A stretch of 64,000 nucleotides of DNA from Pyrobaculum ferrireducens (GTDB lineage: Archaea > Thermoproteota > Thermoprotei > Thermoproteales > Thermoproteaceae): positions 2,394,391 to 2,458,390 of the forward strand of contig NC_016645.1 of the NCBI RefSeq assembly GCF_000234805.1, given 5' to 3'. Under the pieces are notes generated by a model. It did no database searches and was not told the origin of the DNA. It saw only the letters and a program-made list of their open reading frames with translations. The translations under genes were made by a program, and so were the position numbers. Each line of letters starts with the position of its first letter. The stretch's first letter is position 1. Shown here in pieces: positions 36,611-57,570 of this stretch.

Positions 36611-36799
36611 ATGTACAGTTTGACAAATATCTAAAGGTTTTGGAAAAATAAACGGCAAAAGCCGGTTGTCGCAATTCTGCCTCCGGCAACACGGCCTTTT
36701 GATACGCCTCTTCTACCTAGCGAACGGCCACCCGCCGCGCCCCGCAACGCGGGTCCAACTAATCCCGAATAAGCCACCTCGGTGGAGGCGCCGTGTTTC

Positions 36800-37591: not shown

Positions 37592-37819
37592 TCAGTTCAG
37601 CCCTTCTAGACAGCGCGCCTCGTCTTGGTGTTGGTAGTATTGGTAAAGCGCCTGGGGGGTTGGCAACAGCTTGGCGGCGCCTCCCCCGGCGCAGAAGATC
37701 TCAACTACGCCGTCCCAGAGGCAGGCTCTGGAGGCGCGGCAACCGGCCTCCCCGGCCTTAGCCAAGGCGCATTCCAGTAGAGAAAGGCCGCCGCAGTCCA
37801 CCTCTACAAACTCATCCAT
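37592..37819 (-). CDS. small Cys-rich hypothetical protein
   Basis: From ATG 37819 the product is 75 residues with six Cys (VDCGG, LECAL, AGCRASRACLW, EIFCAGG, EARCLEG). This suggests a metal site or disulfides. ATG 37846 is in frame but sits on top of the TATA-like CTTTAAGTAT (37847-37856), so the later start is chosen. Family unknown. Confidence 0.45.
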   Translation of the reverse strand: MDEFVEVDCGGLSLLECALAKAGEAGCRASRACLWDGVVEIFCAGGGAAKLLPTPQALYQYYQHQDEARCLEGLN

Positions 37820-37872
37820 GTAGTAGAGCCACACACCCCCAAACATCTTTAAGTATTAAATATTGAGGGGGT

Positions 37873-38100
37873 GTGGTGGAGAGAATAGGCCCCTCCGCCT
37901 ACCGCGTCAAAATAGGCGACAAAACCGCGGAGGTGCACCTCTTCGAGGTAGGCGCCTTCATCGTGCTGGAAGACAAGACAGTGATTGAGTACGACGGGGA
38001 GAGGATATACGTCGACGGGAAGCCGACAGAAGACCAGCAGATAAAAGCCCTGGTAGAGGCGGCGCTGGCGGCGGTAAGGCAGTACCCCCACGGCAACTGA
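37873..38100 (+). CDS. small hypothetical beta-rich protein
   Basis: The 75-residue product (GTG start, VERIGPSAYRVKIGDKTAEV) reads as a small beta barrel with repeated short strands (FIVLEDKTVIEYDGERIYVDGK in parts) and a C-terminal helix (QQIKALVEAALAAVRQY). It has no Cys or membrane segment. It diverges from the small Cys-rich gene and shares the A/T-rich 37847-37863 region with it. It ends 6 nt from the convergent SF1 helicase gene. Confidence 0.55.
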   Translation: MVERIGPSAYRVKIGDKTAEVHLFEVGAFIVLEDKTVIEYDGERIYVDGKPTEDQQIKALVEAALAAVRQYPHGN

Positions 38101-38106
38101 CACCCC

Positions 38107-40386: not shown

Positions 40387-40575
40387 ATGCCCATAAAATG
40401 TCCTTACTGCGGATCCGCCGTGATAGAGGCTGTTAAGAGCTGGGATATGCCGAAGATGGGCTACCACGTCACCCACTACCGGTGCAAAACATGCGGCGGC
40501 CTCTTCAACCACTACGTAGGCAGGGGGAGGGAGTTCGTCCTCCGGGTAGGCCTTAGGAAGAAGACCTCCGCCTAG
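40387..40575 (+). CDS. small zinc-ribbon protein
   Basis: From ATG 40387 the product is 62 residues with one four-Cys ribbon (IKCPYCGSAVIEAV...YRCKTCGGLFNHYVG) and a basic tail (RVGLRKKTSA). A TATA-like GTTAAAAGTT (40357-40366) is about 25 nt upstream; the frame is open to 40342 but lies before that box. Nucleic-acid or protein binding is likely. The 3' end overlaps the convergent helicase-nuclease gene by 23 nt. Confidence 0.6.
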   Translation: MPIKCPYCGSAVIEAVKSWDMPKMGYHVTHYRCKTCGGLFNHYVGRGREFVLRVGLRKKTSA

Positions 40576-42973
40576 CGTTGTACTTGTATTCAATCCCCCT
40601 AACGGTCTCCAGCACCCACTCCCTCTGGAACTGCGCAAAGGGAATGCACGAAAGCTCCACACACCTATCCCCCTCTACGTAGGCCGTACAGATTATGTAG
40701 CGGTCGGGATACCTCGAAGCAAAATCAATTTCATTTGCAGTAAAGGAAAAGGGCTCCTCCCTCTTGCCTATCCACTTCCCCTTAATCTCAACAACGTACA
40801 TCACTCCGTTTTTCAACACAACCATGTCGAAAGGCCGAGGCCCGCTGAAGTAGTCATGCTTAACAACATAGCCGTTCCTCCTCAACCACTCCCTTACACA
40901 GTTGACAGCCGCCTTCTCAGTCCGCTCGATATTCCTGCTCCGCCTCACCTCCGCCTCAACCCTCTCCTCAAACTCCTCCACAGCCACAGTACCCACCCCC
41001 TCCACCCTAGCCCTCCTAATCCTCACCAACTTGTACTCAATATCGCCAAGGTGGAGCAAATCTCTCACATTGTCTAGATACTTCTTCAAATCCATCCACA
41101 CATTCATGTGGACAAGCCTAGCCACCTCCTCCCGCTCGTCCTCTCTCACTTCGCCAGACTCCACCTCAACAAAATCCCAATCCACGGCGCCCTCTCTAAA
41201 AACCCCCTTCTTGATCTCGCGGCTCCGGCTAAGCGGAGTCTCCAGACGTACCAACACAGACTCTCTATACACAGGCTGTTTTGCGGAGTAGTACTCCACC
41301 TCGGCGAGGTAGTAACCGCCCCCAGGCTCCGGCCGTAGATCGTATGGATACCCCAGCTTGGCCTTGAGCCCGCTCTCCACCAAAGCCTTTGACTTCCACC
41401 TCACCTCCTCCTTAGCCTTTAGTATAGCCTCAATCCTCCGCCTAAGCTCCTTCATCCTCTCCCCGTCTGACAAGGCGGTGAAGACGTCGGCATCCTTCAA
41501 GTAGGCCGAGGAGCCTATTTCAATAATCTTCCGGAGCTGGTCCTCAGACAGCTCGTAGATCTCAAACTCGCCGTAGCTCTGAGGCGGAAGTGCCCTAAGC
41601 GAGATGTTGTAAAGCTTCTCCAAGAGGTCTAGATACATGGTGTACTCGTCCCGCTCCCCTCCCGCCCTCAGCACCATATCCACCACCAGCACTGAGTCGG
41701 CCTTCTGGCCGAAGCGCCATATCCTCCCAACCCGTTGCACATGCTTCGTGGGGCTCCACACCACCTCGTAGTTAACAACCACGTCGTACATCTGGAGGTT
41801 AACCCCCTCCGACATGATGTCGGTAGAGATAAACACCGCCGTGTCGAAGGAAGAAGCCAGGAGAGACGCCTCCACGTTTACATCTATCTTCTCCCTGGCC
41901 TTCGCCGTGGCGTACATAACCCCCATCCCCCCGCAGTCGGCCTTGGCGAAGCCATCCCCGGAGTCAACAACCCTGCAGCCCTGCGTCAGTTGCTGAAATA
42001 GATACTCAGCCGTCGCGGCGTACTCGGTGAAGACCAGCACCTTCCTCCCCCTCCACAGCCCCAGCAACTTCCTCAAAGCGTCGAGCTTCCTATCCGGCGC
42101 CGAGGCGAATCTCCCAGCGAGCTCCACGAGATCCCTCCACCCCGCGAGGTTCCCAATACAGGCATCCAGCTCCCCCTCTTCAAGAGCCGCCGCGTCGCAG
42201 ACGCCCCCCACCACCCGTCCCAGCGTTTTGAAAAACGACGCGGGGCTAGACATAGCCCTCTTCTCAACCACAACTCTCACAATAGGCTCAACATCGGCGC
42301 TCCTCAGCTTTGCCAGCAGATTAAACAGCGCTTGCCCCTCCTCCCTAGAGGCCCTCACCTGAACCACCCAGTAGCTGAGGCGGGGAAATATCCTACGCCC
42401 CTCGTACTCCTCCACATCCCTCTTCTCCCTCCTAACCACCAGCCCGCCCACCAGCGACGTCAAGAACCGGTAGTCCTCCTCATTGCCGGTGTGAGGCGTC
42501 GCGGTGAGGAGGAGACAGCCCCCCGCCTTTCTGCAGAGATGCGCCAGATTCGCCCTCTGGGTGTCAAGCCTAATCTTGTGGGCCTCGTCGACGACGACGA
42601 GATCCCACGCTATGCGGCTAAGAGCCTCGAGGTAGTCCGGCACCTTCGCCCTATCCATAGTGACTAGGTACACCCTATGCCCCAGAGGAAATTCAGAACT
42701 CTCCACTAGGAAATACGGAATCTCGAACTTCTCCAACTCCCCAGCCCACTGCGACAACACCGCCCTCGGCACCACAACCAAGACGTGGTTCACCCGCCCC
42801 AGCTCCATCAACGCCTTCACCAAGAGCAACGCCTCGATAGTCTTCCCAAGCCCCACGTCGTCGGCAAGAAGAAGCCTAGGCCTAGGGAGCCACAAGGCAT
42901 CCGACACAAAATCAAGCTGGTGCCTATACAACTCCTTACCAGCCTGCCTAAGAATCTCCACTAGAGAGACCAT
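40553..42973 (-). CDS. SNF2-like helicase fused to a DUF3883-like nuclease domain
   Basis: The 806-residue protein has HQLDFVSDALWLPRPRLLLAD (parts) followed by DDVGLGKTIEALLLV (motif I), LVVVDEAHKIR (II, DEAH), LLTATPHTGNEEDYRFL (III), VLVFTEYAATAEYL (IV) and KHVQRVGRIWRFGQKADSV (VI), the SNF2/RapA-like SF2 set. The C-terminal 130 residues (TEKAAVNCVREWLRRNGY, GPRPFDMVVL, MYVVEIKGKW, FTANEIDFASRY) match the PD-(D/E)XK-like DUF3883 pattern with Asp and Glu-x-Lys. This architecture is typical of restriction or anti-phage systems. It lies next to a DUF499/DUF1156 pair and has its own promoter. Confidence 0.85.
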   Translation of the reverse strand: MVSLVEILRQAGKELYRHQLDFVSDALWLPRPRLLLADDVGLGKTIEALLLVKALMELGRVNHVLVVVPRAVLSQWAGELEKFEIPYFLVESSEFPLGHRVYLVTMDRAKVPDYLEALSRIAWDLVVVDEAHKIRLDTQRANLAHLCRKAGGCLLLTATPHTGNEEDYRFLTSLVGGLVVRREKRDVEEYEGRRIFPRLSYWVVQVRASREEGQALFNLLAKLRSADVEPIVRVVVEKRAMSSPASFFKTLGRVVGGVCDAAALEEGELDACIGNLAGWRDLVELAGRFASAPDRKLDALRKLLGLWRGRKVLVFTEYAATAEYLFQQLTQGCRVVDSGDGFAKADCGGMGVMYATAKAREKIDVNVEASLLASSFDTAVFISTDIMSEGVNLQMYDVVVNYEVVWSPTKHVQRVGRIWRFGQKADSVLVVDMVLRAGGERDEYTMYLDLLEKLYNISLRALPPQSYGEFEIYELSEDQLRKIIEIGSSAYLKDADVFTALSDGERMKELRRRIEAILKAKEEVRWKSKALVESGLKAKLGYPYDLRPEPGGGYYLAEVEYYSAKQPVYRESVLVRLETPLSRSREIKKGVFREGAVDWDFVEVESGEVREDEREEVARLVHMNVWMDLKKYLDNVRDLLHLGDIEYKLVRIRRARVEGVGTVAVEEFEERVEAEVRRSRNIERTEKAAVNCVREWLRRNGYVVKHDYFSGPRPFDMVVLKNGVMYVVEIKGKWIGKREEPFSFTANEIDFASRYPDRYIICTAYVEGDRCVELSCIPFAQFQREWVLETVRGIEYKYNARRRSSS

Positions 42974-43257: not shown

Positions 43258-43649
43258 GGTAGTGCCTCCCGGTAGGTCTTGGCGATTTTCGCAAAGGCGT
43301 CGACAATGCGGCGGCAGTTGCCGCCCTCAGCTCTGCATAGCCAGAGCCTGTAGAGAAAGGCGTCGGCTATGAGGGACACCTCGTGAAGTCTGAGAGATGC
43401 GGCGAGTACCTCGGCCTCCCCCCGCGGCAGGCGGCTCCTGCGCGCCAGGAGGTACACCAAAGCCCTCTCGAAGGGAACTCTATCCCGGAAAACCAGCTCC
43501 CCGTCGCTAAGCTCCACATGCCTCCCCACCTCCCAAGGCCACAGCCTCTTTAAAAAATCAGCCACCTCCTCCAGCGGCACCCCCACCTCAAACCTCCCCT
43601 CCGGCGCCACCACAGCCACCCGACGCGCCCCCCGCCTCCTAATCAACAT
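43254..43649 (-). CDS. hypothetical protein of the DUF499/DUF1156 cluster
   Basis: The family is not recognised. The 131-residue product has a basic N-terminus (MLIRRRGARRVAVVAPEGRF), a small beta region and a helical C-terminal half (VPFERALVYLLARRSRLPRGEAEVLAASLRLHEV in parts) with two Cys (LWLCRAEGGNCRR). Its start overlaps the DUF499 stop by 7 nt, so it is the third gene of the methyltransferase operon and probably a subunit or adaptor of that system. Confidence 0.6.
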   Translation of the reverse strand: MLIRRRGARRVAVVAPEGRFEVGVPLEEVADFLKRLWPWEVGRHVELSDGELVFRDRVPFERALVYLLARRSRLPRGEAEVLAASLRLHEVSLIADAFLYRLWLCRAEGGNCRRIVDAFAKIAKTYREALP

Positions 43650-46600
43650 ATCTCCTCCACCTCCACGTCAAAGGCGTAGTCCGCCCCCTTAAACTTCTGC
43701 GCCATATCACTGTCTATCTGGACAGCAGGCGAAAACTCAAACCTCACGTCAGCCCCCGGCGACAGGTACTCCAGAGCCGCCAGGAGTCTGACCGCCCGCT
43801 CCCTCACCTCTGGAGATGTGACGTTAAACACGGCGTCTACGCTCAGCGACACGTCGCCCCCCACCTGCGCCGCCCTCACGGCGAGCCTATGCGGCACACC
43901 CCTCTTCACAAAGTAGTCAAGCAACCCCCTGGCGTCCTTCACAGCCTTTACAGAAATCCCCCTAACCGCTTCTCCCACATTTACAGAGTACTTAGTCCTC
44001 ACCTTCCTACACCGCCCCTTGACGTTTACAGCCACCCTCCTCCTATCTCTACCTCCATCTCTAAAGACGGCCTCTACCTCCAGGCTGTAGACACCCGGCT
44101 CCCACGGCAGATCCACCTCAAACACGTGGACTCTGCCGGAGGCGCTCTCCTCCCTCTCCACATCACCCACGCGGTAGATAACAGCCGCTAGGTCGTCGGA
44201 ACCCACCACCTCCACCCTCAGCCTGGAGCCGGGGTTCCGCTCCACCACAGGAGTAGCCACCCCATCAATCCTCACTTCCACAGCCCTCTCCCTAACCTCC
44301 ACCTCCAGGCGGCCCTCCGAGAGGAAGGGCCAGTCGCCCCTAGCCGTGAGAAGCTCATCCACAGCCCTCTTCACCTCCTCGCCGCTGGGCCTCTTATACA
44401 CCACGTAATACCGCGTCGCGCTTGTAGAAAGAGATGCCAGTTGCTTCAAAAACGCCTCCACAGCCCAATCCACAAGCTGATCCCTCCACCTCAGCGGGGC
44501 GACCCCAACGTCTTTGTCGAGGGGTGGGATCTCACAACCCGTCTTGGAAAGCCACCTCACCTCTCCATCCACCTCGAACAGACAGCTACACCCGGCGCAG
44601 TAGCTCTTCACAGCCTCCAAGAACTCCTCAAAGGAGATCGGCGCAGGCGGGAATTTCTCGTTGTTTAGATACAGACTCCAGAGATCTCCCAGCTTCTTAA
44701 AGCCGTCCCACTGAAGCTCTGCGAAAATCTTCTCCACAAGCCCCCTCAACACGTCAGACCTCTGCTTAGCCACCTCGCTGAGGTATTCGTCAAGCCGCTT
44801 CACATCCACATCCCTAAACCCAGCCGCCACCCTCCTAAGCCAGGCAAAAGCCGCAGCCCTCAGAGCATACGCGGCGCGCTCCTTCCACCGCTCCACCCTA
44901 CTCCTTAACAACTGCTCCATCTCCCGCTTAATTCTCTCGTCCTCTATGGACAGAAGATCTGGGAAGTAGTGGTACAGGTTGAGGAGGACCTCGTCAACCG
45001 CCTTGTAGAGCTGGCCCAACGCCACGGCGGCCTCCTTCACGTTCTTAACAGCCGTAAACCTCTCCAAAAGCCGCTCCGCGTCGGCAGGCACAGGCCCCGA
45101 GTCGTCCCGCCTAACGAAAAAGAGGTTGTTCCTCCGCCTACCCACCCCAAACTCCATCAGGTCAACCGCCAGCGTGGACTTATCCGCGTCGTCCAGCGCC
45201 CTGGCCCACTCATCCCTATTGGTCAGAATCACCACCTTGCCGAAGGCCTTCCTCTGGCTACTTACGCCCGAGACATAGACAGCCGAGAAGAAGCGCGCGT
45301 TCTCCCTCAGAAGGGCGGCCAGCTGATCCGCGACTACGTCCATGCCGTCCTCGTAGGAGAATTTAAACATAGCCTCCCTAATGGCGTGGACCTCGTCGCC
45401 GATAAACCAATAGACGTACCTATCGCCCAGCCTCGCCACGTGGAGCCCCACGTCGGTGGCCCTGGCGAGCACGTCCTTCACGTCCACAGGCCTAATGTCG
45501 AGGGCGTTGTAGCTACCCGCCACGATCTCATCCTCAGTAGGGTAGAGGGACTCGGCCGGCATAAGCCTAGCCAGAAACGTCGCCAGGAGGATGTGCCTCA
45601 GGACAGAAACCGCGGCCTTACCGCCAAGCCGGCCGACATCCTCCTTGTACAGCCTCACCAAGGTGGACCACTCGCCAGCCAAAGGCCCGCCCACGACGAG
45701 GATATCCTCGGGTTCCGGCAAGTGGGCGAAGGTCACGAGCTCATCGGCTGAGGCATTGACGTAGGCTCTAGCTAAAGTGCGGAGCAACTCCCTAGTCATC
45801 TGGATCCTTGTCCGCTCGGCCAGCGACTCGTCGGCGAGCCTCAACACGACGTCGAGAAAAACGGGGTTGAAGGGGTAGGCCTTCTCTAGCTTCCCCTCGA
45901 AATCCCTCAAGACCTCCTCCCTCACCACGCCCTTCAGCGGCGCTATGTCGGCTCTCCGGGGCCTGAGGCCGGCCCAGCGCCTGAAGACAGCCGCTATGTT
46001 CTTAGCCGTATCCAGGCCGACCCTAATAACATTCATCCTCTCCACGGCGCTCAGCGACCTGGAAGCCTCGAGAGCAGGCCCCCGGCCGCCCTCCGGGAAG
46101 AGGGAGTAGGACACGAAGAGGTAGACGCCCTTGACCTCCCCGGCGACCTCAGCCAGCGTCTGGATCCACTGGACAAAGCCAGGCTCCTCCTCCAGGTACT
46201 GCGTCTCGTCGAAGAGCAACACGATAGGCGACGCGTCCCTCAACACGCCCCGGAGCTCCTCCTTAGTGGCAAGAGACCTCAGCCTCCTCTCGAACTCTCC
46301 CAAGACGCGCCCAGCCCTGAAAACCGCCACGTTCGGCACCTTCGCCAAAGTGGGCGTATAGAGCTCGATCCCGTACTCGGCCAAATGGCGCGATACGCAC
46401 TCGCCTGAGCCCTTACACCGCCTATACAGGGCGATGATGTGGAGCACCAGGGCGAGGAAGTGAGACTTGCCGGCCCCCAGCAGGGCTGGGAGGGTGTATA
46501 TCTGCGACTCCCCCGCCGCCAGCTTCTTCAAGAAATCCTCAATGTGCTGTCTAAACCCCGGCGTGATGTACGTAATCTTGAAAAAAGAGTCGGGATCGCA

Positions 46601-46714
46601 GTACACCCTGTGGGCCTCTTCCGGATTCCTCCCTAGAAACAACGCCCCGTAGACCTCGTATATGTCGATGGCCGGACTTATCTTACCCTCAGCCAACAAC
46701 TTTACAAAAGACAC
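43643..46714 (-). CDS. DUF499-type AAA+ ATPase
   Basis: The 1023-residue protein has a Walker A loop LLGAGKSHFLALVLHI (residues about 79-94), a Walker B strand VLLFDETQYLEEE (about 165-177) and an early YEVYGALFLGRNPEEAHRVY stretch (parts) typical of COG1483/DUF499 ATPases. Large middle and C-terminal parts include beta-sandwich-like regions near residues 830-920. DUF499 proteins are regularly encoded with DUF1156 methyltransferases and helicases in predicted defence systems, in the PglY/BrxC sphere. It lies 30 nt behind the methyltransferase and overlaps the next gene by 7 nt. Confidence 0.85.
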   Translation of the reverse strand: MSFVKLLAEGKISPAIDIYEVYGALFLGRNPEEAHRVYCDPDSFFKITYITPGFRQHIEDFLKKLAAGESQIYTLPALLGAGKSHFLALVLHIIALYRRCKGSGECVSRHLAEYGIELYTPTLAKVPNVAVFRAGRVLGEFERRLRSLATKEELRGVLRDASPIVLLFDETQYLEEEPGFVQWIQTLAEVAGEVKGVYLFVSYSLFPEGGRGPALEASRSLSAVERMNVIRVGLDTAKNIAAVFRRWAGLRPRRADIAPLKGVVREEVLRDFEGKLEKAYPFNPVFLDVVLRLADESLAERTRIQMTRELLRTLARAYVNASADELVTFAHLPEPEDILVVGGPLAGEWSTLVRLYKEDVGRLGGKAAVSVLRHILLATFLARLMPAESLYPTEDEIVAGSYNALDIRPVDVKDVLARATDVGLHVARLGDRYVYWFIGDEVHAIREAMFKFSYEDGMDVVADQLAALLRENARFFSAVYVSGVSSQRKAFGKVVILTNRDEWARALDDADKSTLAVDLMEFGVGRRRNNLFFVRRDDSGPVPADAERLLERFTAVKNVKEAAVALGQLYKAVDEVLLNLYHYFPDLLSIEDERIKREMEQLLRSRVERWKERAAYALRAAAFAWLRRVAAGFRDVDVKRLDEYLSEVAKQRSDVLRGLVEKIFAELQWDGFKKLGDLWSLYLNNEKFPPAPISFEEFLEAVKSYCAGCSCLFEVDGEVRWLSKTGCEIPPLDKDVGVAPLRWRDQLVDWAVEAFLKQLASLSTSATRYYVVYKRPSGEEVKRAVDELLTARGDWPFLSEGRLEVEVRERAVEVRIDGVATPVVERNPGSRLRVEVVGSDDLAAVIYRVGDVEREESASGRVHVFEVDLPWEPGVYSLEVEAVFRDGGRDRRRVAVNVKGRCRKVRTKYSVNVGEAVRGISVKAVKDARGLLDYFVKRGVPHRLAVRAAQVGGDVSLSVDAVFNVTSPEVRERAVRLLAALEYLSPGADVRFEFSPAVQIDSDMAQKFKGADYAFDVEVEEIC

Positions 46715-46744
46715 ACATGGAATTCTCCAGATACTTAAAAGTAC

Positions 46745-49729
46745 CTACCCCCACCACTCGGCGCCCAGAATAACCTTCGCGGTCTTCACATCGACGTCGT
46801 CCTCGTCGAGAACACCTGCCCTTGCCAGCTCCACAAGCGCCCTGGCCAGCGCCAAGGCCTCCTCCCTAACCTCAGGCGCACAGGTGACGGAGGTCTTAGC
46901 CAGGAGGTTGAGCTGAAGCTGGCGGAAGCAGTCAAGCACCGGCCGCCCCCGCTGAGCCGAGTACACCCGCCGGATCTCATCCACCGTGTCCCCCCGCGGC
47001 GCCAGGACCTCGAAGGCCTTGCGCTTAGCCACCCTCGGCCCGCCCACGTCGGCCTCCCTAATCAGTCCCAGCTTTATGAGGTCTACGTGCGGCAGGCCGG
47101 TGGCCCGCTCCACGTGGGACAGAGTGTCGCTGTCCACATACCCCCGCTCGTTCTCCATAATGCGGAGGGCGAGGTAGGCGTGCGCCGCCGGGTCGGACAG
47201 CCTCACCCCGGCCTTCCTGAGGAGGGCCTCGAAGGCGATCGCCACCGCCTGCCTCATCAACCCCTCGGAGTCCAGCTCCAAGCCGCCGAGCGTAACCGGG
47301 CTGTGGGCCGTGAGGTACTCCAAAGCCGCCAAATAGGCGTAGACCCACGCCGTCGTCCCGTTTTTCTTCTTCGCGCCGCTGGACACGGCCCTCAACCTGC
47401 GGTCGACCCTCTCGGCCACCTCCTCCACTACCCTATCCCTCTCGGCCGAGAGGTCCAATGGCTTAGGCCCGGACCTGCGCCTCCACGCAGAGACGTAGCC
47501 GCCTAGCACAGACGCCTTGCCCCTAGCCACGACGTTCTCCTCGCTCTCGGTGGCCACCGGGTACGCCGCCACCATCTCCAGCCCGTTCACGCGCCAGAGG
47601 GCGTCCACAAGAGCCGCCCACGACTCCGGCTTCTTAGCCACGTAGTAGGTCACAAGGAGGCCGTCCTCCTTCAAAAACCTAAGCACGTTGGCAAAGGCCT
47701 TGGCCAGCATGTCGCGGAAAGTGGCACTGATCTTGAAGTACTCCCAGCGCCCCACGCTCTCCGACACCTCCCTCACGGCGAACCGCTCCCATTGAGTCCT
47801 CACCTCCAGCCCAAGCTCGTCGAAAAACGCCTCGGGCACAAACCTAGGCCGAAGCGCCGCGCCGTCGCTGTCGCTGAGCGCCCTCTTAAGCCACACAAAG
47901 TAGAAGTCGCTCAGCTCGGAATAAGCCACATCGTCAGCATAAGGTGGATCAGTAATAATAACATCAAACTTCCCTCCCTCTAACTTAGACAATTCAGAAG
48001 CATCATCAAGCACAACCCAAAACCTGCTAGGACTACCAGAAGTAGCAAAGACAAGATAAGACAAACTACTGATAATATTTTCTATGGCATTATTCCACGA
48101 ACCTGTTCCTTTTGAGTATGGTTTTACATCTCCGTAATTCCACTGCATTGATATACCTCGCATTGCGAAAGCCCTCTTCACTGGTTGCCATGCAGTTGCT
48201 TGCCACTGCGACGAAATAGAGTTAAAGTCTGACATATTTGTAAGCGCTATTGCTAAATATGTCGTTACTGCTTCTGCGTATTTAAGCGCCTCTTCTTTGT
48301 TCAATCCTTCCTTTAATTTATCTTCCTCAATTTTCTTACCTGCCTCACGTATTAGTTTAACGAGTTTGACTAGGGTTAGGAGCTGGCGTGGGTTGAAGAG
48401 CTTGAAGAATTTATTAAAACCCCATGTCCATATGCTCAATTGACCTGCCGTCCCCATATGATATTTCCAAAGTTCTTCTGTGGGAATATCTGGATCTCCC
48501 CACATCCGTCTGAGTCTCTCGGCGGCTTGCCACAGCTTGTCCATGTCTTGTTGAGTCGCTGGCTGGAACTGCAGGTCGCCGTCTTTGACGTACACCTTGG
48601 CCAGAAGTGTGGGCCTCACAGATGCATTTTTGAGCTCCTCCAGGGTGACCTCGCCTCGTAGGTACTTTTCGTATAGCTCGTTCCACTGGCGGAGGGCCCA
48701 CTTGACGTACCAGTCGCCGTCTCTCCTCCCGCCTTTTGTGATTTTTCCGTTGACCACCCGGTGGTTGATCTCGGCGCGGCAGTGTAGGCACTGGGCGGTC
48801 TCCCTCCTGGCGTCTATGTTTTTGGCCGGCACGGCGTAGCGCTGTCCCCGCCACTCCACCGAGCCGCCGCCTTCCTCCTCCCTGGTCTGCACCTTGGCGT
48901 TGAGCTCGCCGCAGCTGCCCCCGCCTTGTCTTCTGCACTCCTCGTTTAGATCCACCACGGAGATGCGGCCGTCTTCCCACTTCATCCATGCCAGCCTCTC
49001 GTAGTAGGTCTTTCCCTTGACTCTGGCGAGCCACCAGTTGCCCACCAGCGGGGTGTAGCGGCCGCAGACGGGGCACTTGACTTCCCAGGTGCCTATGTAG
49101 ACGTCGGCGTCGTAGAGCCCCGCCACGTCCGAGTCGTTGCGCAGTTGCTCCAGGACCCACCTGCCCCACTTCGCCACGTCGTATATGAGCGCCGGCACCT
49201 TGTACCTGGCGGAGTCCGCCACCGCCTTCACGCCGTTGAATTTCTTCACGACGTCCTCTAGGCCGAGCTCCTTTGCCTCTCTGCCGGTGATCTCCGTTGT
49301 GAGGTGGCTGAATTTCTTTGGGTACTCCAGCACCGCCTTGAGGAAGACGTAGGCTGTGGGGAGGAGCTCCACGGCCGCGGCGTCGGCGCCGAGCCTGGCC
49401 GCCTCCAGCGGAATGGAGCCGAAGCCCGCGAAGGGGTCGAGCACCTTCTTGCCCCTCAGCCTCTCCACGAGACGCGGCGAGGGGTTGCACTGGTACACCG
49501 TCTTCCTCTCGCGGCGGCATGGGAAGAGGTCGTTTAGGAACTGCTCTGGGTTGCTGTAGGCGTCGGCGGGTAGCAGAGCCGCGGCGATTACCGCCCTAGC
49601 CCCAGCCAGCGGCTTCCGGGTCCACCAAAACACCATCTCCCAATGCGGAGGCCTCCCAGGACCCTTCTCAACCTCACTATATTCGTTAATAGCCTCAATC
49701 GGTATGCCAGACTCGAGTAAAGACGTCAT
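46745..49729 (-). CDS. DUF1156-type adenine-specific DNA methyltransferase
   Basis: The 994-residue protein begins IPIEAINEYSEVEKGPGRPP and HWEMVFWWTRKPLAGARAVI, the DUF1156 opening. The AdoMet motif LDPFAGFGSIPLEAARLG is near residue 95 and the catalytic TDPPYADDVAYSELSDFYFVWLK (motif IV) near 592, which is the DPPY of amino-methyltransferases. Two Zn-binding stretches (KCPVCGRYTPL, QCLHCRAEI) fit the COG1743 description. It should modify adenine (or possibly cytosine N4) in host DNA. It is the first gene of the MTase-ATPase-small protein operon, with a TATA box at 49749-49757. Confidence 0.9.
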   Translation of the reverse strand: MTSLLESGIPIEAINEYSEVEKGPGRPPHWEMVFWWTRKPLAGARAVIAAALLPADAYSNPEQFLNDLFPCRRERKTVYQCNPSPRLVERLRGKKVLDPFAGFGSIPLEAARLGADAAAVELLPTAYVFLKAVLEYPKKFSHLTTEITGREAKELGLEDVVKKFNGVKAVADSARYKVPALIYDVAKWGRWVLEQLRNDSDVAGLYDADVYIGTWEVKCPVCGRYTPLVGNWWLARVKGKTYYERLAWMKWEDGRISVVDLNEECRRQGGGSCGELNAKVQTREEEGGGSVEWRGQRYAVPAKNIDARRETAQCLHCRAEINHRVVNGKITKGGRRDGDWYVKWALRQWNELYEKYLRGEVTLEELKNASVRPTLLAKVYVKDGDLQFQPATQQDMDKLWQAAERLRRMWGDPDIPTEELWKYHMGTAGQLSIWTWGFNKFFKLFNPRQLLTLVKLVKLIREAGKKIEEDKLKEGLNKEEALKYAEAVTTYLAIALTNMSDFNSISSQWQATAWQPVKRAFAMRGISMQWNYGDVKPYSKGTGSWNNAIENIISSLSYLVFATSGSPSRFWVVLDDASELSKLEGGKFDVIITDPPYADDVAYSELSDFYFVWLKRALSDSDGAALRPRFVPEAFFDELGLEVRTQWERFAVREVSESVGRWEYFKISATFRDMLAKAFANVLRFLKEDGLLVTYYVAKKPESWAALVDALWRVNGLEMVAAYPVATESEENVVARGKASVLGGYVSAWRRRSGPKPLDLSAERDRVVEEVAERVDRRLRAVSSGAKKKNGTTAWVYAYLAALEYLTAHSPVTLGGLELDSEGLMRQAVAIAFEALLRKAGVRLSDPAAHAYLALRIMENERGYVDSDTLSHVERATGLPHVDLIKLGLIREADVGGPRVAKRKAFEVLAPRGDTVDEIRRVYSAQRGRPVLDCFRQLQLNLLAKTSVTCAPEVREEALALARALVELARAGVLDEDDVDVKTAKVILGAEWWG

Positions 49730-49748
49730 ACCCCAATATAATCACGCT

Positions 49749-49757
49749 ATTTAAAAG
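49749..49757 (-). promoter_or_regulatory. TATA box of the methyltransferase operon
   Basis: The element ATTTAAAAG (plus-strand reading; CTTTTAAAT on the minus strand) is centred about 24 nt before the ATG at 49729. It is too near the ATG at 49769 (about 16 nt) to serve the PIWI gene in a leaderless manner. Confidence 0.5.
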
Positions 49758-49768
49758 TAGCGTATTGT

Positions 49769-51337
49769 ATGGATTATCTGAGTACTAACTCAATACTAAA
49801 TGGACCTTTTATATTCACGTATACTTCTCATCATATGGTCAGGTCCCCCGGGAAGTCTCTCCCCCCATACATAGATACCTATAGTAATAAAAACTGGCGC
49901 TGCGATATAAGAAGAATACTTATTCCTCATGAATTGTTGGAAACGGAGATAGATGGTTTGAGCTGTCAGGATTATCCGTATGAATGTGCGAAAAAAGTGG
50001 TCTCAGAGCTGAGGAGGTCCGGAGGTAAGGCATACTACTTGAAGGAGAATCCAAAAATAATTCTTACCACAGACAGCGGTAGTGGCACGTATAATCTACA
50101 ACCCTTACCTGCAAAATCCTTAGATGAAGTACTGGGATTTGAATTTAAACCAAGGTTCCTATTTGGAAATAATGTAGTGACAGAGACTCCATACGGTATT
50201 CTTAAAAACCCGCCTTACGAGTGCCAGGATGAACAGGATGAATTACCCCGATTGGTTATTTTATATGAAGATAAAAGGGCGGCTGTAGCCGTCAAGAAAC
50301 TCCTATATGAAGTTAAGCCGTTTACTGAGTTATTTAGACGACCTGATATGACTAGACTGAGTGATGTAGAAAAGAAGGGAAGTTTAGAAGATGTGCTTAA
50401 AGGTGGGACTGTTACGTTATTAATTGCAAGTGAAAATTATTTGAAAAGTCATTTAGATGTGATTACTCAGCTTAAGTTAGAAAGCTTTAAGCTGGGAAGG
50501 GGACGTTCTTCATTACAGATTATCAATTCAACTAGATTTGCAAATTTAACTTATGAACAGCGGCGGTTTTATTTCCCAGCGAATCTTGTAGCAGCTCTGT
50601 ATTTTAAGGCCGGGTGCATTCCATATGGGGTAGTAGTGCCGAATTGTGCGTTATGTTATGAGTTGCAGGCGAGTCTATACGTGGGGGTTGCATTAGCGAG
50701 GGGGCCTAATGGTTATTACAAAGGTGTCGCTATTTTGATGGAAGGGCTTGGCTCAGTGGTGAACTATGTTGATACTGATGAGGTTCTAAAAGGTGGCAGT
50801 ATGGAATTCGGAGAAGACGAAGCGGAGAAATTCAGTAGTAAAATAGTGGAGATGATTATGGAATACAAAGAGAAGTTTGGGGAAACTCCGGAAAATTTGT
50901 ATGTTGTGAGGAGTAGAGCGTTTGCCAGTATAGAGGCTGATGAAATTAGGAAGAAAGTTGAACGGGGAATTGAAAAGAAGTTGAGTTTAATTGAACGCTT
51001 CATGTGGAAGAAGTTAAAAAGGAAGACTATTGTCTTTATGTCGCCTTATAAAACAAAGTATAATATCGGGGGCAATAGAGCAATACATGTAAAAAGTCTT
51101 TCTGATTACTCGAATCTTTGGTTAATTCAGCCGCCTAGTTTTAATCATGCTATAAGAATTTCATACAATAGCGGAAATATAGACAGGAGACTTCCGGTAT
51201 TAGCATATTTGTATTTAAGATGGCTTGATTTTACCAGCCTTATAATGAAGGGGCGTTCAACTATTGCGCCAGTTACATACGCTAAAAGATATCTAAAGTG
51301 GTTAACTTTACAAGACAAAATAAAGTTATGGAATTAA
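49769..51337 (+). CDS. MID-PIWI prokaryotic Argonaute homologue, predicted catalytically inactive
   Basis: The frame encodes 522 residues, or 500 if translation starts at ATG 49835 as the TATA box at 49804-49813 suggests. Residues 124-170 (FEFKPRFLFG, PYGILKNPPYEC, LVILYEDKR) match the entry to a MID domain. NLVAALYFKAGCIPYGVVV (272-290), LYVGVALAR (303-311), GVAILMEGLG (319-328), PENLYVVRSRAF (374-385) and STIAPVTYAKRYLKW (497-511) follow the PIWI order of strands. The expected catalytic Asp of VGxD is Ala308 and that of RDG is Ser382, so slicing is unlikely. No PAZ domain fits in the 120-residue N-terminus. Inactive short Argonautes guide DNA or RNA recognition and signal to a partner. The gene is far more AT-rich than its neighbours, suggesting transfer. 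Confidence 0.72.
   Translation: MDYLSTNSILNGPFIFTYTSHHMVRSPGKSLPPYIDTYSNKNWRCDIRRILIPHELLETEIDGLSCQDYPYECAKKVVSELRRSGGKAYYLKENPKIILTTDSGSGTYNLQPLPAKSLDEVLGFEFKPRFLFGNNVVTETPYGILKNPPYECQDEQDELPRLVILYEDKRAAVAVKKLLYEVKPFTELFRRPDMTRLSDVEKKGSLEDVLKGGTVTLLIASENYLKSHLDVITQLKLESFKLGRGRSSLQIINSTRFANLTYEQRRFYFPANLVAALYFKAGCIPYGVVVPNCALCYELQASLYVGVALARGPNGYYKGVAILMEGLGSVVNYVDTDEVLKGGSMEFGEDEAEKFSSKIVEMIMEYKEKFGETPENLYVVRSRAFASIEADEIRKKVERGIEKKLSLIERFMWKKLKRKTIVFMSPYKTKYNIGGNRAIHVKSLSDYSNLWLIQPPSFNHAIRISYNSGNIDRRLPVLAYLYLRWLDFTSLIMKGRSTIAPVTYAKRYLKWLTLQDKIKLWN
49804..49813 (+). promoter_or_regulatory. TATA-like box inside the 5' end of the PIWI frame
   Basis: CTTTTATATT is centred about 26 nt before ATG 49835, the first Met after it in the PIWI frame. 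It indicates that the true protein starts at MVRSPGKSLPPY. Confidence 0.45.
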
Positions 51338-51921
51338 ATTTAGCAAATATTTTTTCATGGTTAAAGTTAATTTCAGAATTAGTTAATAATTATCTTAAAT
51401 CTATAGTTGATAGTTACTTAAAATCTATAGAGGTCGAGTGTTGCATTGATGCTCTGAAGTACCTACGCCGCGGTCGTCGTGTTAAAAGGACACCGAAGCT
51501 ACAAGATGAGTGTTACAATTTTTATAAGGAACTAAAGAGACACTTTCGACAGAATGCATTAAATGTTTATTTTAGCTATGTGATTCTAAATGAGTTAAAG
51601 TTATTAGCTAAATTTTTAAGTAAAGATATTGAGATTGATTTTAGAAATTTACTCAAAAACTTTGTTAATAAGTATAAAATAAAATGTGGGCTCTGTCAGA
51701 GGTGTATATCTCCACAGGACTGCTTTCTAAAGTATATAGCATGTGAAGATCGGTGTACGAGGTGGAGAATTAAGAGGAAACTTATGCGTATTGCCGCGAG
51801 GAGTAACCCTATGTCGGACTACGCTCGTTATTTCCTTAGAGGTTATGTTACGGATGATATCGAATCAAAACTACGTCAGCTTTACTCTAAGTCCAGTTTC
51901 TCATGTACTGCACCACGATAA
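51328..51921 (+). CDS. Cys-rich helical partner of the PIWI protein, unknown family
   Basis: ATG 51328 overlaps the PIWI stop by 10 nt, so the two genes are translationally coupled. The 197-residue product is Leu/Lys/Ile-rich and mostly helical, beginning MELNLANIFSWLKLISELVN, an amphipathic rather than clear transmembrane stretch. A possible metal-binding knot lies at about residues 118-141 (KCGLCQRC, PQDCFLKYIACEDRC), followed by a basic patch (TRWRIKRKLMRIAARS). I do not recognise it, and I see no APAZ, TIR, SIR2 or nuclease motif. By position it should be the effector or the missing N-terminal half of the Argonaute. AT-rich like its partner. Confidence 0.6.
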   Translation: MELNLANIFSWLKLISELVNNYLKSIVDSYLKSIEVECCIDALKYLRRGRRVKRTPKLQDECYNFYKELKRHFRQNALNVYFSYVILNELKLLAKFLSKDIEIDFRNLLKNFVNKYKIKCGLCQRCISPQDCFLKYIACEDRCTRWRIKRKLMRIAARSNPMSDYARYFLRGYVTDDIESKLRQLYSKSSFSCTAPR

Positions 51922-51927
51922 TTTAAG

Positions 51928-52120
51928 TTAATTATGAACTATATGCGTCCCGGCTCTGTTTAGGGCTGTGTCTATGGGGCTGTCGGCGAGTCCGCTTGCG
52001 ATGATTACATCTGCGCCGGTTTTTGCGGCCATAGGTCTAGGCCTAGGCGCTGGGGAGGTTTTGTATCATCTTGGTGGGGTCTTTGCAGACTACTGACCCG
52101 CCTATTTTTACGACTATCAT
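51928..52120 (-). pseudogene. lysZ: lysZ remnant with internal deletion
   Basis: The start survives: ATG 52120 reads [20 protein letters not shown], the N-terminus of LysZ ([LysW]-aminoadipate/glutamate kinase), and then hits TAG at 52043. In another frame, 52032-51928 reads [20 protein letters not shown] and continues [10 protein letters not shown] to a TAA, which is the end of the same kinase. About 200 codons between are missing, with the junction around the palindromic CTAGGCCTAG (52035-52044). The gene cannot make an active kinase. The last base of the frame is only 6 nt from the stop of the PIWI partner gene. Confidence 0.75.
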
Positions 52121-52266
52121 ATGGGGGCGATGGGGATTGTCCTCAGCACCTCGTCCTCTGGGAAGCCCATAGCGATGTTGATTGCCTGGCTGGCGGCGCC
52201 TCCCACTAGGTTGTCTATGGCGGCGAAGGCGACTGCCCAGCCGAGGCGGGGCAGTTCGATTTCTGA
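52117..52266 (-). pseudogene. lysY: lysY remnant (3' end only)
   Basis: In one minus frame the DNA reads IELPRLGWAVAFAAIDNLVG and then GAASQAINIAMGFPEDEVLR to TIPIAPI and TGA, the conserved C-terminus of LysY/ArgC ([LysW]-aminoadipyl/glutamyl phosphate reductase). Upstream the frame is closed by TGA at 52267-52269. The TGA at 52117-52119 overlaps the lysZ ATG, which preserves the original operon coupling. Only about 48 codons remain of some 350. DNA further upstream (52270-52440) shows no reading frame I can connect. Confidence 0.75.
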
Positions 52267-52454: not shown

Positions 52455-53285
52455 ATGTCTAGAGGCAGGTATGTATACGAAGACCCCTCGATTGGAGCCA
52501 TTATTTCAGCCCTCTCTGTCGTTGACTTTGTCCTAGGGGAGAGGCACTATGATAGTTATTTAAAACAGACCGTTAAGGGTCCTGGGGATTTATCCCTAGT
52601 TTACAAAAACGCCAAGGTGGTACTAATCGAATTTAAAGCACCAGAGCTAGCCACATTCAGCTGGAGGTACGAGATTGGACAAGTAAAGAGCGGCCTCTTT
52701 AACGCATATTTAGAACTAGCCAAAAAGGAACTACTATTCCTAGGTCTAATACACGGCTTAGTCGATCCATACAATGCTCCGCCTGGCGGCATGGCGACGT
52801 TTCGCCACGCACCTCTAACCACGGCCTTTGTGCTTCCAAACGACGCCGAACGTTGTCTGACAATGCTAAGTCGAATGAACACTACGACGTTACATGTAAT
52901 ACATGTGCATGGGAACTGTTTATGGAACTGTTTCCCGTTTCCAAATCTTAAACGTAAGACATATCGGCGGGATTTTGTAAGGTGCTATTCGGCCATTTGT
53001 AAGCTAAGCAGGTATTGTAATAGCTACTGCGTCAGCGAATTACACACTGGAGAGTGCAGATTTATGCACGTTGTAGATTTGGCAACTCTGCTTTGTTGTC
53101 TAGAAGAGTGTAAATTTGGCATAAGGGGTGAGGAAGCTATGCCGTTGTTAAAAAAAGTTATACCTGATTTGCAAAAAGCTCTACACGAGATCACCCACTT
53201 ATATGTCCTGACATCTACCCTAGAGCTTATTCCACTACGCGACTTCTTAAATCTGTTAGAGGGGGGTACACCCCCCGAGACCTAG
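52455..53285 (+). CDS. PD-(D/E)XK-like, Cys-rich protein
   Basis: The 276-residue product has GPGDLSLVYKNAKVVLIEFKAPE at residues 43-63 (given as GDLSLV and VVLIEFKAPE), in which Asp45, Glu59 and Lys61 fit a D-x13-ExK nuclease core, with an upstream Glu in the first helix. Residues about 155-215 are rich in Cys (GNCLWNCF, RCYSAICKLSRYCNSYC, GECRFM, LCCLEECKF), which may hold a metal or Fe-S cluster, a feature also seen in Cas4/AddB nucleases, though the order here differs. It sits between the lys remnants and the large ATPase, close to the PIWI cassette, and could be part of the same defence module. Nuclease activity is inference. Confidence 0.55.
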   Translation: MSRGRYVYEDPSIGAIISALSVVDFVLGERHYDSYLKQTVKGPGDLSLVYKNAKVVLIEFKAPELATFSWRYEIGQVKSGLFNAYLELAKKELLFLGLIHGLVDPYNAPPGGMATFRHAPLTTAFVLPNDAERCLTMLSRMNTTTLHVIHVHGNCLWNCFPFPNLKRKTYRRDFVRCYSAICKLSRYCNSYCVSELHTGECRFMHVVDLATLLCCLEECKFGIRGEEAMPLLKKVIPDLQKALHEITHLYVLTSTLELIPLRDFLNLLEGGTPPET

Positions 53286-53484: not shown

Positions 53485-56400
53485 GTGGCTGTTTCCGGCG
53501 ACTTATTCGCGCCGTATAACAAGAAGAGGGCTGAGCGGTACCCCTTCCCCGCCGTGGTGGTTGGGCCGCCTCGTAGCGGCAAGACGTTCTTCATAAAAAA
53601 CTACGGGGTGGAGGCCGGGGAGAAGATCGCCGTTGAGAAGGGCGAACTCGCCGAGGAGGTGGGTGGGGGGCTGTATAGGCTTGTCTACTACATCCCGTGG
53701 GACGACGCGGAGAGGTACGCCAGCGGCGACGCAAAGAGGGCCGTCGAGCTCATCCAACAGCATTTTACGCCGGTGGAGTACCTCGGCGTTGGGTACATGC
53801 CGCCTGGCTTCGTGGCTGAGGTGTTGAAGAGGCTGGGGGAGGGCGGCGAGGAGGCCGCCGTGAAGTACCTAGAAGAGCAAAGAGAGGCCTATGAAGAGCT
53901 TTCCTCGTTGCTGGCGCCAGATGTCTGGGATAGGGTGCGTGAAGTGTTTAAGAGAATTGGCTACGTCGCCTTGAGGGAGGCGGTGTTGTTTTTGACGGAG
54001 GTATTGCATATCGCCGACGCCTTCCTCGTTTCTAAATTTCTAGATCTGGTGGCGGCTGTCATAAAGGTCTTCGGCAAAAACTGGATTACGCAGTGGATAG
54101 AACAGAGGGAGAGGTGGAGAGGCCTACACGAGGACCTGCGGAAGGTGCTGGCGTGGAGAGCCGCCGCGAAGCTGGGAAGAAGCGGAGAGGAGGTGGAGGG
54201 GGCGCTGGACGCGCTCTACAGAATTGACGCCGCGAGGCTGGAGGAGGTGGTGGAGAAAATCGAGGAGAAGCTGGCCGAGCTGGAGGCCAGAGTCTCAGTG
54301 CTTGAGGATAAGCTCATGCCTGACAGCGCCGTCTACACTGAGGCGGAGGAGCTGGGCGTGGAGCGCAGAGGCGGAGTCTTGTACGTAATGGGCGCGCCGT
54401 ATGTAGACCCGGCGCGGTACGGCCTAACACAGGCAGTGGAGGAGGTTAAGCAGAAGGTGTGGGAGGTTGTGGAGAGGGGCGGCGTCTTGGCCATAGTCGG
54501 CCCAAGAGGAGTCGGCAAGTCCACGCTGGCCAGAGCCGTGCTGGCGGAGGTTCTGAGGAGGGCGGCGGTTAGAGGCGTGATAAACGTGAATAGGCTGAAG
54601 CTTGACGATCTGCCAGAGGTGGTGGAGAGGGGAGGCCGTAGCTACCTCTTGTTCTACGACCCCACGACCCCTAGGTTCTACGAGTTGGGTGGTCTTGAAA
54701 AACCTCTGGAAAGGCCAAAGCCCGAGGTCGTCGGCGTAGTGGCTGACCTCGTCAACTTGACGCACCGCGGGAAGCAACCCAGAGCATCCGTTGTTTTGGT
54801 ACTGCCGACGGACGTCTACAACGCGCTGGGCGAGGAGGTGAAGAGGCGCATAACCCCCGTCGCTCCTGATTTGAAGAGCGTTGAGTTCCTCGCCGAGGTA
54901 ATAAGGCGGTACTCCGGCTGTCGGCTAGAGGGAGAGAGGTTGAAGATCCTGGCCGGGGAGATTGCGAAATTCGACGAGGGCTACACCCTAATCGCCAGGC
55001 TTGTCGGCGAGGAGTTGAGAGAGCGGGGTTGCCAGCTAGAAAAAGTAGAGGAGATGGTGAGGGCGGCCGGGGGGAAGGCCCTTAGGTTTATGCTCATCTA
55101 CGTCAACGAGGTGTTGGGGGTTGAGCGGGGTGGCGGCGAGGTGAGGTGTCCCGACTTGGCTTGGGTGTTCTCCGCCGTGCTGGCGGCTAGGGCGGATTTC
55201 GCCGAGGCCGCGAGGCCAGGCGACGTCCTCATCCCGCCCACTCTGCTGGAGAAGTGGGTTGAGTGGAGATGGGCCAGGTACAACGGCGTCCGCTGCGGCA
55301 GAGAGGCCCTGCCTCAGAGAGTATTCAGCTGGCTCTCGATAAGACACCACTACCTTGTGGAATCCGCGTTAAAACTAGCCGCCCAAGCCAAGTCAAGCCG
55401 CGCCTCAGAAGAGTTGCAGATGTTGAAAGAGTTAGACGTATGGGCCAAATACGGCGTCGAGAGTTACAACATCCAAGACTTCTTGATGGAACACGGCCCT
55501 GATTTAGAACGGGAGTGGGAGGGGGCGGTCTGTCTAGAGAAATTTGCGTTAATGCTCGGCGCCGCCATCGCTGACCAACCATACAAGCCATTTGCCGAGG
55601 CGGCAAAAGAGGCTGGAGAGGACCTAGGCAACACCGTCGAGAGGATAGGGAGGGGGTGTGTGATAGACGAATACCTGCTGGCCGACGGCGAGCTAACGCC
55701 ATTCACCCGCGTACTTTTACAAGAGATGGCTTTGAGGGGCGTGATGCCTAAGTCCTTCGCAAGCCAACACGGCAGAGCGCTAGAGGAGGCGGAAAAACTG
55801 GTAAAGACATGGAAAGAGAGAAGCTACACCAAGGTATGGGAGTTTCTCTACTGCCTTGGCCTGGCCGTAGTGGTGGCGAGGGCGGAGGCGCTGGATAGAG
55901 AGGTAGCCGTAAAGGCGCTATATGCGGCTCTGCCAGCTGTGCGACACACGGTGTTTCCAGTCGCTGTCGGTGATATTTTCGATGTGCTTTCGCCGCTGAG
56001 GGAATACGCGCCGGATTGGTGGGCCGCCGTGCTTGACGTCGCGGCTACGCCGGCGGTGATTGAGCGGCCGGAACTGGCCAGGCGTATTTTTGAAGAGATT
56101 GAGTGGGTCAAGGAGCGGGTGGTGGAGGACTGGGCCAAGGCGCTACTCGCTAGCGCCTACGCTGCAGTGCCTACAAAATATGCCGATGCCGAGAAGTTGC
56201 GTAGAGATGTCTGTCGACTCTTGGGAGGTATTCAAGACCAGGATTTGAGAACTATAGCGGAGATCTACACGCTCTGGCGGCTCGCCGAGAAAGGGCTCCC
56301 GCCTTGCGGTGTCGATCTGTGCACGGAAGGGGGAAGAGAGGGCTGTGTAGAGTCTCTGGAGAAGGCGTTTGAAAAGAAGGTAGGCGAGCTGTTGTCAAAA

Positions 56401-57570
56401 CTGGCGGAGCTGAGGAAAAGAGCTGAGGAAGGCGAACTAAGCCCAGAACTGGAGAAGTACCTAGCCGCTAAATCCCCAGTAAGGCAGCAGGTGGTGCTTC
56501 AGATGATGCTCTCTGAAGCTAAGGCTAAGCTGTACTCCAGCCTCGCGGTGGCCAAGCTGGACGCCGGCAAGCCAGAGGAGGCGGCGGAATATTTCGCCAA
56601 AGCCGCTGAGCTCAACAAAGAGCTGGGGATTTGGGAAAACTACCTAACCGACTCTTCTCGAGCCGCTAGAGCCCGCGTGTTGAGGGTCGGCGACCTCAGC
56701 GAGGCTGTTGAAGCTGGCGAGGTTTTTGAAAAACTGTGGAAAGAGGCAGAGGAGCACATAAAGCCGACGGCCGTCATGTTGTATATTGCCTCTTTCAAGC
56801 TGGCTGAGTATCTTGTCTACCTGACGGCTTCCGGCAGAATGGAGAAGGCGGCTGAGGTGTTGAGAGAACGCGGCTGGTTGTTGAGATATGAAAACTACGT
56901 ACACGTCGCCACCCTATACATATTGAGGTTACTCGGCGCGGAGGTGGAGGCGCCAGACGCCGAGGAGCTGTTAAAGGCGCTAGGGGGCCGCATAGATCCG
57001 CTTCTCAAGCCAGCTCTGGCGGCTTCGCTGGGCGTTCCGCCAGAGTCCCTAGATATAGCGTTGCTGTGTGCTGAAGCCGCCGAAGTGCAACCCGAATTAT
57101 TCAAACGCGTAATTGAAGAGAGGAACTCATCTCAACTGGGGGAATACGCTTGGCCTTTCGCATTTTGTCTCGGCGTCTACAAAGCCGTTATGGGCGACAT
57201 GGAGGCGTCTGACCTATTACGTATACATGTAAAAAAGTTGTATGGGGAAGAGTCAGAGCTCCTTTCTGTGCTGGACCGTCTTGACGCCGGGGGGCTGGTG
57301 CAGGTTTTGGCGCCTATAGACTCACATGGCCAGCTAATTCTTCTGCTTAGGGCCCTCGACGAGGCTAGAGGCGCCAGGGGCCCAGAGCGGGAGAGGTATC
57401 TCGAGCTGGCGCGGGCGCATGCTCTGGTAGGCAAATACGTCTATAAGGGGACTATATTCAAAACGCTTTTTGGCGAGGCGGCCAAGGCGGTTGAGAAGTG
57501 CGGCGGCCAAGTGGAAAACTGCGAGGACTTAAAGCTGGCGCTACTCAAACTCTATTACCTCCACATCTAG
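53485..57570 (+). CDS. very large two-P-loop ATPase, STAND-like
   Basis: The 1361-residue protein has one P-loop near the N-terminus (VVVGPPRSGKTFF, residues 24-36) and a second at 336-348 (AIVGPRGVGKSTLARAVLAE). A coiled-coil stretch (EEVVEKIEEKLAELEARVSVLEDKL in parts) separates them. The second P-loop is followed by YLLFYDPTT and VVLVLPTD, consistent with a STAND/AAA NTPase. The C-terminal 700 residues are all-helical with TPR-like pieces (EEAAEYFAKAAELNKELG, RMEKAAEVLRERGWLLRYENYV in parts). The protein may be a sensor-effector of a defence or mobile-element type. The GTG start lies about 20 nt behind GATAAATATAAA (53456-53467). Specific function unknown. Confidence 0.65.
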   Translation: MAVSGDLFAPYNKKRAERYPFPAVVVGPPRSGKTFFIKNYGVEAGEKIAVEKGELAEEVGGGLYRLVYYIPWDDAERYASGDAKRAVELIQQHFTPVEYLGVGYMPPGFVAEVLKRLGEGGEEAAVKYLEEQREAYEELSSLLAPDVWDRVREVFKRIGYVALREAVLFLTEVLHIADAFLVSKFLDLVAAVIKVFGKNWITQWIEQRERWRGLHEDLRKVLAWRAAAKLGRSGEEVEGALDALYRIDAARLEEVVEKIEEKLAELEARVSVLEDKLMPDSAVYTEAEELGVERRGGVLYVMGAPYVDPARYGLTQAVEEVKQKVWEVVERGGVLAIVGPRGVGKSTLARAVLAEVLRRAAVRGVINVNRLKLDDLPEVVERGGRSYLLFYDPTTPRFYELGGLEKPLERPKPEVVGVVADLVNLTHRGKQPRASVVLVLPTDVYNALGEEVKRRITPVAPDLKSVEFLAEVIRRYSGCRLEGERLKILAGEIAKFDEGYTLIARLVGEELRERGCQLEKVEEMVRAAGGKALRFMLIYVNEVLGVERGGGEVRCPDLAWVFSAVLAARADFAEAARPGDVLIPPTLLEKWVEWRWARYNGVRCGREALPQRVFSWLSIRHHYLVESALKLAAQAKSSRASEELQMLKELDVWAKYGVESYNIQDFLMEHGPDLEREWEGAVCLEKFALMLGAAIADQPYKPFAEAAKEAGEDLGNTVERIGRGCVIDEYLLADGELTPFTRVLLQEMALRGVMPKSFASQHGRALEEAEKLVKTWKERSYTKVWEFLYCLGLAVVVARAEALDREVAVKALYAALPAVRHTVFPVAVGDIFDVLSPLREYAPDWWAAVLDVAATPAVIERPELARRIFEEIEWVKERVVEDWAKALLASAYAAVPTKYADAEKLRRDVCRLLGGIQDQDLRTIAEIYTLWRLAEKGLPPCGVDLCTEGGREGCVESLEKAFEKKVGELLSKLAELRKRAEEGELSPELEKYLAAKSPVRQQVVLQMMLSEAKAKLYSSLAVAKLDAGKPEEAAEYFAKAAELNKELGIWENYLTDSSRAARARVLRVGDLSEAVEAGEVFEKLWKEAEEHIKPTAVMLYIASFKLAEYLVYLTASGRMEKAAEVLRERGWLLRYENYVHVATLYILRLLGAEVEAPDAEELLKALGGRIDPLLKPALAASLGVPPESLDIALLCAEAAEVQPELFKRVIEERNSSQLGEYAWPFAFCLGVYKAVMGDMEASDLLRIHVKKLYGEESELLSVLDRLDAGGLVQVLAPIDSHGQLILLLRALDEARGARGPERERYLELARAHALVGKYVYKGTIFKTLFGEAAKAVEKCGGQVENCEDLKLALLKLYYLHI

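Follow-up and report, generated by a model that had tools for sequence, protein, structure and literature searches.

Hotspots that recombine at flanking core genes were described in 2017 (PMC5635113), and in Pseudomonas aeruginosa defence systems reportedly recur between the same two core genes of core defence hotspots (PMC10250203). The locus analysed here, from Pyrobaculum ferrireducens, resembles the former in having variable defence content beside a core gene (lysZ/argG), no recognised integrase and putative exchange at the core-gene flank. However, the flank appears here to have been broken off and to travel and decay with the cassette, and its copies at several sites, one of them in a second genus, would show where the cassette used to lie. 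The locus differs from the P. aeruginosa hotspots in being archaeal and in carrying broken-off remains of the flanking gene at other, secondary sites. A search of open papers for lysZ or argG hotspots, or for scars of core genes within archaeal defence islands, found none mentioned; nor did it turn up a description of such detached scars moving together with an archaeal Argonaute cassette.

In Archaeoglobus fulgidus, the split long-B Argonaute is encoded by a pAgo and a small partner gene in one operon (PMC10954474). The pAgo studied here likewise has a small partner gene, but here the partner is the downstream gene of the two and no match to AfAgo-N was made; we use that system as context for the pair. 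The neighbouring methylase and ATPase score with PADLOC as HmaB (E 4e-55) and HmaC (E 1.5e-5) of the Hma system, with an SNF2 helicase adjacent, although the HmaC match is weak and the pAgo and partner are additional, and membership is not claimed.

A decayed lysY–lysZ remnant beside an Argonaute cassette

The window, i.e. the whole 64-kb stretch of DNA analysed, covers positions 2394391–2458390 of the source genome (G000), a single contig of 2,467,972 bp. It was compared with the sister species G009, with G016 (a genome from a second archaeal genus) and with further relatives. The cassette and the remnant comprise the following features (window coordinates).

40553–42973, minus strand: SNF2-type helicase (Pfam; 91% homology to the G009 cassette, from 40392)
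43643–46714, minus strand: DUF499 ATPase, HmaC-like (Pfam PF04465; PADLOC HmaC)
46745–49729, minus strand: DUF1156 DNA methylase, HmaB-like (Pfam and PADLOC; 88% nucleotide identity to the G009 cassette)
49769–51337, plus strand: short prokaryotic Argonaute (pAgo), 522 aa (PADLOC pAgo, E 9e-22)
51331–51921, plus strand: Argonaute partner gene, running towards the lysZ remnant, the two stops 10 bp apart
51932–52251, minus strand: whole lysY–lysZ remnant, all pieces on the same strand
51940–52029, minus strand: lysZ 3′ remnant, LysZ residues 228–257, with altered last codons to the stop at 51932–51934 (tblastn E 9e-10)
52030–52051, minus strand: deleted stretch that retains 10 bp of lysZ codons 46–49, CTAGGCCTAG, at 52037–52046
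52052–52120, minus strand: lysZ 5′ remnant, LysZ residues 1–23 (tblastn E 1e-8)
52117–52120, minus strand: ATGA overlap of lysY and lysZ
52120–52251, minus strand: lysY 3′ remnant, LysY residues 305–351 (the last 47), with a 9-bp deletion (tblastn E 1e-14; alignment)

The pAgo was recognised through PIWI/MID homology by PADLOC; a Pfam search with it gave no hit, and PDB searches with the pAgo and the partner returned nothing usable. The pAgo and partner genes (49769–51921) form the AT-richest part, with a GC fraction of about 0.38 in the 50–52 kb bin against about 0.58 around it, as would be expected of imported DNA.

Using the intact LysY and LysZ proteins as tblastn queries against selected loci, we found significant homology for each piece of the remnant (E 1e-8 to 1e-14), in operon order and with the ATGA overlap retained. 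Genome-wide DNA searches with intact lysYZ also matched the lysY end plus lysZ start (E = 5e-69) and the lysZ end (E = 4e-27), and the lysZ 3′ remnant (51932–52029) is 89–91% identical at the nucleotide level with native lysZ of G000 and G009. Thus the peptides match LysY/LysZ at both the protein and the DNA level, and the reading in the earlier note of a decayed lysY–lysZ segment belonging with the Argonaute cassette was borne out. Its account of the preserved ends (LysY C-terminus, ATGA, LysZ start and LysZ end) also held, but the lengths are LysZ 1–23 and about 30 C-terminal residues rather than 34. As it had stated, about 200 lysZ codons and most of lysY are gone: LysZ residues from about 24 to 227 and LysY residues 1–304 are missing. 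The N- and C-terminal LysZ pieces lie in different frames, no complete LysY or LysZ ORF is left, and the C-terminal tail of LysZ reads HIVHN* against HITP* in the native protein. Sequencing errors hiding intact genes were ruled out, because more than 600 bp of lysZ are absent and three other loci also show decay of lysY/lysZ. The remnant is a neutrally decaying lysY–lysZ pseudogene.

The native lysZ–argG gap and the sister-species cassette

Both genes stand intact elsewhere in the same genome, at 1381369–1383191, lysY with 351 aa and lysZ with 259 aa; the earlier note had proposed a whole-genome check for such copies. Loss of the LysW-pathway locus, one of the note's two interpretations, is therefore ruled out. 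In G000 the intact pair is preceded by a 186-aa gene, probably lysX; between lysZ and argG lie an McrB-like AAA ATPase gene, an unassigned 402-aa gene whose position alone suggests McrC, and a gene of the GP88 family, immediately downstream of lysZ.

In most relatives argG directly follows lysZ, with a gap of about 200–310 bp, whereas in five genomes (G000, G009, P. oguniense, G014 and G016) the gap is enlarged to between 1.3 and over 16 kb and holds differing genes. Thus lysZ/argG is an insertion hotspot with variable content between conserved neighbours. The gap of G000 (1376–1382 kb; L008, L085) holds the McrB-like ATPase plus GP88, that of G009 spans over 16 kb with a pAgo cassette, that of P. 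oguniense has a 1260-aa ORF and that of G016 an archaeal ATPase_2 gene; L063 2850–7450 and L056 8334–9317 are further intervals of this hotspot. Matches in a LysZ search of genome contigs came mainly from P. oguniense, two other Pyrobaculum and Thermoproteus sp. CP80; the contigs searched with the STAND-like ATPase described below gave no match.

The synteny comparison, likewise proposed in the earlier note, showed that the G009 cassette adjoins intact native lysZ. The order there is DUF1156 methylase (minus), pAgo (plus), partner (plus), about 7 bp, intact lysZ (minus) and lysY; further left are DUF499, a 131-aa gene and the helicase, with argG about 5.4 kb past the helicase. The window cassette has the same gene order, and its segment 40392–49730 is 88–91% identical at the nucleotide level. 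Because the G009 cassette in this same order abuts an intact lysZ, and from the comparison of the lysZ–argG gap among relatives, the window remnant is best read as the lysZ-side end of a G009-like arrangement, carried along with a moved cassette as its old neighbour.

Across window 46391–51940 and L029 1–5629 (G009), the methylase is 88% and lysZ 91% identical in nucleotides, with amino acid identities of 37% for pAgo and 29% for the partner (E 1e-24). The G016 homologues, also side by side, are closer to those of the window (pAgo 79%, partner 81%). Since the window and G009 pAgos are only 37% identical, the Argonaute pair appears to be a case of allele replacement between conserved flanks.

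Four lysZ scars, their descent and their decay

Four cassettes, spread over three genomes from two genera, contain a piece of lysZ; in each it lies between a variable defence module and a copy of a STAND-like ATPase gene just to its right. The other three scars and the features framing the window cassette are as follows.

G000, 260 kb: scar with LysZ 1–47 and LysY 306–351, worn at the 3′ end
G009 C4, 189.5 kb: scar with the last 96 LysZ residues, 94% nucleotide identity
G016, 1.476 Mb: scar with about 300 bp of the lysZ 3′ end, frames broken
Window 36122–38454: left frame block, with further copies to the left of the 260-kb, G009 C4 and G009 C1 cassettes, 88–90% nucleotide identity
Window 52455–53285, plus strand: 276-aa ORF, confined to the window and 260-kb scars, the two that retain lysY
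Window 53485–57570, plus strand: STAND-like ATPase with TPR, flanking the scar on the right (Pfam AAA/nSTAND/TPR hits)

The scars are 83–92% identical with native lysYZ of G000 and G009 (77–78% for the worn 260-kb 3′ end), against about 50–74% with other Pyrobaculum species. In maximum-likelihood trees all tested fragments grouped with the native lysYZ of G000 and G009 (support 100/100). The G016 scar is 85% identical with the G000/G009 gene and 77% with the lysZ of its own genome, and its grouping with the latter was rejected (p-AU 0.002). All lysZ pieces thus descend, on these comparisons, from lysZ of the G000/G009 lineage, and since the G016 scar is excluded from its own lysZ, the G016 cassette came, directly or not, from that lineage.

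These results bear on the other interpretation in the earlier note, loss of a second copy, by which a complete second lysY–lysZ operon stood at the window site and was destroyed by insertion of the defence cassette. Such an internally deleted operon would keep both ends and the overlap, as the remnant does. However, none of the order's 45 genomes showed a second full-length lysYZ, there is no sign that the window site ever held a complete second operon, equivalent scars lie at three other places beside the same ATPase, the scars are no older than the G000/G009 lineage, and the intact copy is present. Loss in place is strongly disfavoured, and we consider it very unlikely.

The deletion junction had also been placed at a palindrome. 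The 10-mer concerned, CTAGGCCTAG, proved to be native lysZ coding sequence: the genome holds nine copies, one of which lies within intact lysZ at codons 46–49 (1381995–1382004), and base-level alignment showed that the window kept it as an islet between two deletions. It was thus rejected as a recombination signal and stands as a retained relic. The 260-kb copy has a deletion endpoint at the same codons 46–49, with one base of the 10-mer changed. Since the two copies share this endpoint, the large lysZ deletion was probably inherited from their common ancestor, and later private deletions removed a further 60 bp or so in the window and some 20 bp on the other side in the 260-kb copy. Independent internal deletions in the two copies were rejected on this alignment.

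Many islands use tRNA genes as attachment sites and carry a 3′ copy. By analogy, an integrase element might use the lysZ 3′ end as its attachment site and carry a copy of it, and at the two native loci and the four scars alike, homology does end no more than a few codons from the stop of lysZ. However, two of the scars hold lysZ 5′ and lysY sequence and so exceed an attachment site, no integrase was recognised among the cassette proteins scanned, and the 64-kb window contains no tRNA or Rfam feature as an insertion target. Site-specific integration therefore seems improbable to us.

Changes at second codon positions made up 36/125 in the scars compared with 25/243 between the native functional genes (p = 1e-5, an approximate value as sites within one scar are not fully independent). 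Substitutions spread over the codon positions in this way are the behaviour expected of pseudogenes. The lysZ piece might nevertheless have a function of its own, as a regulatory element, an antisense RNA or a source of Argonaute guides, and four cassettes that differ in their left modules have indeed all retained the 3′ piece. Decay for which both the codon positions and the indels look neutral, the lack of any Rfam match in the window and the two ATPase copies that carry no lysZ piece make such a function extremely unlikely.

Reassortment around the scar and its proposed history

The left block has a common left edge at 36122–36129; this 2.3-kb sequence (also in L057, L087 and L054) precedes four defence cassettes in two genomes. 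The ATPase together with its right flank is likewise repeated on the far side of the cassettes. Between these frames lie the helicase–methylase–pAgo set in the window, another DUF499–methylase–helicase set plus a 373-aa gene in the 260-kb and G009 C4 loci, and an unclassified pair (1238 and 478 aa) without a lysZ scar in G009 C1. The STAND-like ATPase family (1360–1400 aa) has six close copies in three genomes (window, L009, L030, L053, L054 and L055), each beside a different partner set, among them HerA/NurA-like genes at 2315 kb of G000 (by sequence look) and the unclassified 1238/478-aa pair in G009. The 276-aa ORF has two copies in its own genome, none in 18 relatives, and no Pfam family; the copies (52455–53285; L009 10637–11500, 287 aa) are 64% identical as proteins against about 85–87% for the neighbouring lys remnant as DNA, and the gene is possibly fast-evolving.

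Three characters of the four scar-bearing loci were compared. The left module is of the pAgo type in the window and G016, and of the helicase/373-aa type in the 260-kb and G009 C4 loci. The scar consists of lysZ, lysY and the 276-aa ORF in the window and 260-kb loci, whereas in G016 and G009 C4 a lysZ 3′ end runs straight into the upstream region of the ATPase, at what looks like one shared junction. The ATPase, whose central 600 bp fall into two allele classes, groups the window with G009 C4 (and C1) and the 260-kb locus with G016 (and the 2315-kb copy), a 100/100 split for which chiefly the central region of the gene is responsible. The three characters thus give three different splits, and the loci four combinations. 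The simplest account of this incongruence is recombination among the four loci, and the place where their left and right sides part company is the lysZ scar. Four loci are a small basis for such a conclusion, however, the scars have only 65–100 bp in common at the 3′ end, and a small chance remains that parallel deletion produced them.

Taken together, our results suggest that the remnant is quite probably a relocation scar of the defence cassette, relocation as such being well supported. In the native order argG–lysZ–lysY–lysX, the gap between argG and the lysZ 3′ end takes up defence genes in this lineage. The cassette (helicase, 131-aa gene, DUF499 ATPase, DUF1156 methylase, pAgo and partner) would have sat in this gap, about 10 bp from the lysZ stop, and would then have been copied or moved, together with the adjoining lysZ–lysY end, to a place between the left block (36.1–38.5 kb) and the STAND-like ATPase. 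Because the cell kept intact lysYZ, the carried piece would have been redundant, and it decayed through point changes and internal deletions. Scar-bearing cassettes would later have recombined among several loci and into another genus, with exchange points in the lysZ piece or next to it. The breakpoint of the original event is not preserved in any sequence. We infer which way the cassette moved, that homologous recombination moved it and that a retained lysZ homology arm is of benefit; a cassette already carrying a lysZ piece could instead have recombined into the native G009 lysZ.

It is possible, though we hold it doubtful, that lysZ fragments act as portable homology arms through which cassettes recombine into native lysZ or into other lysZ-scar loci. 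If so, the scars would make secondary sites satellite landing pads, where left modules (Argonaute or helicase) and right ATPase types are reshuffled. For P. ferrireducens itself, the result corrects a possible false inference that lysine/arginine synthesis had been lost. Defence islands turn over fast and the path of a given cassette is rarely recorded, whereas a decaying piece of a core gene would record the former address of the cassette, its source lineage and the order of events. This points to a testable route by which archaeal Argonaute cassettes may spread without a recognised integrase.
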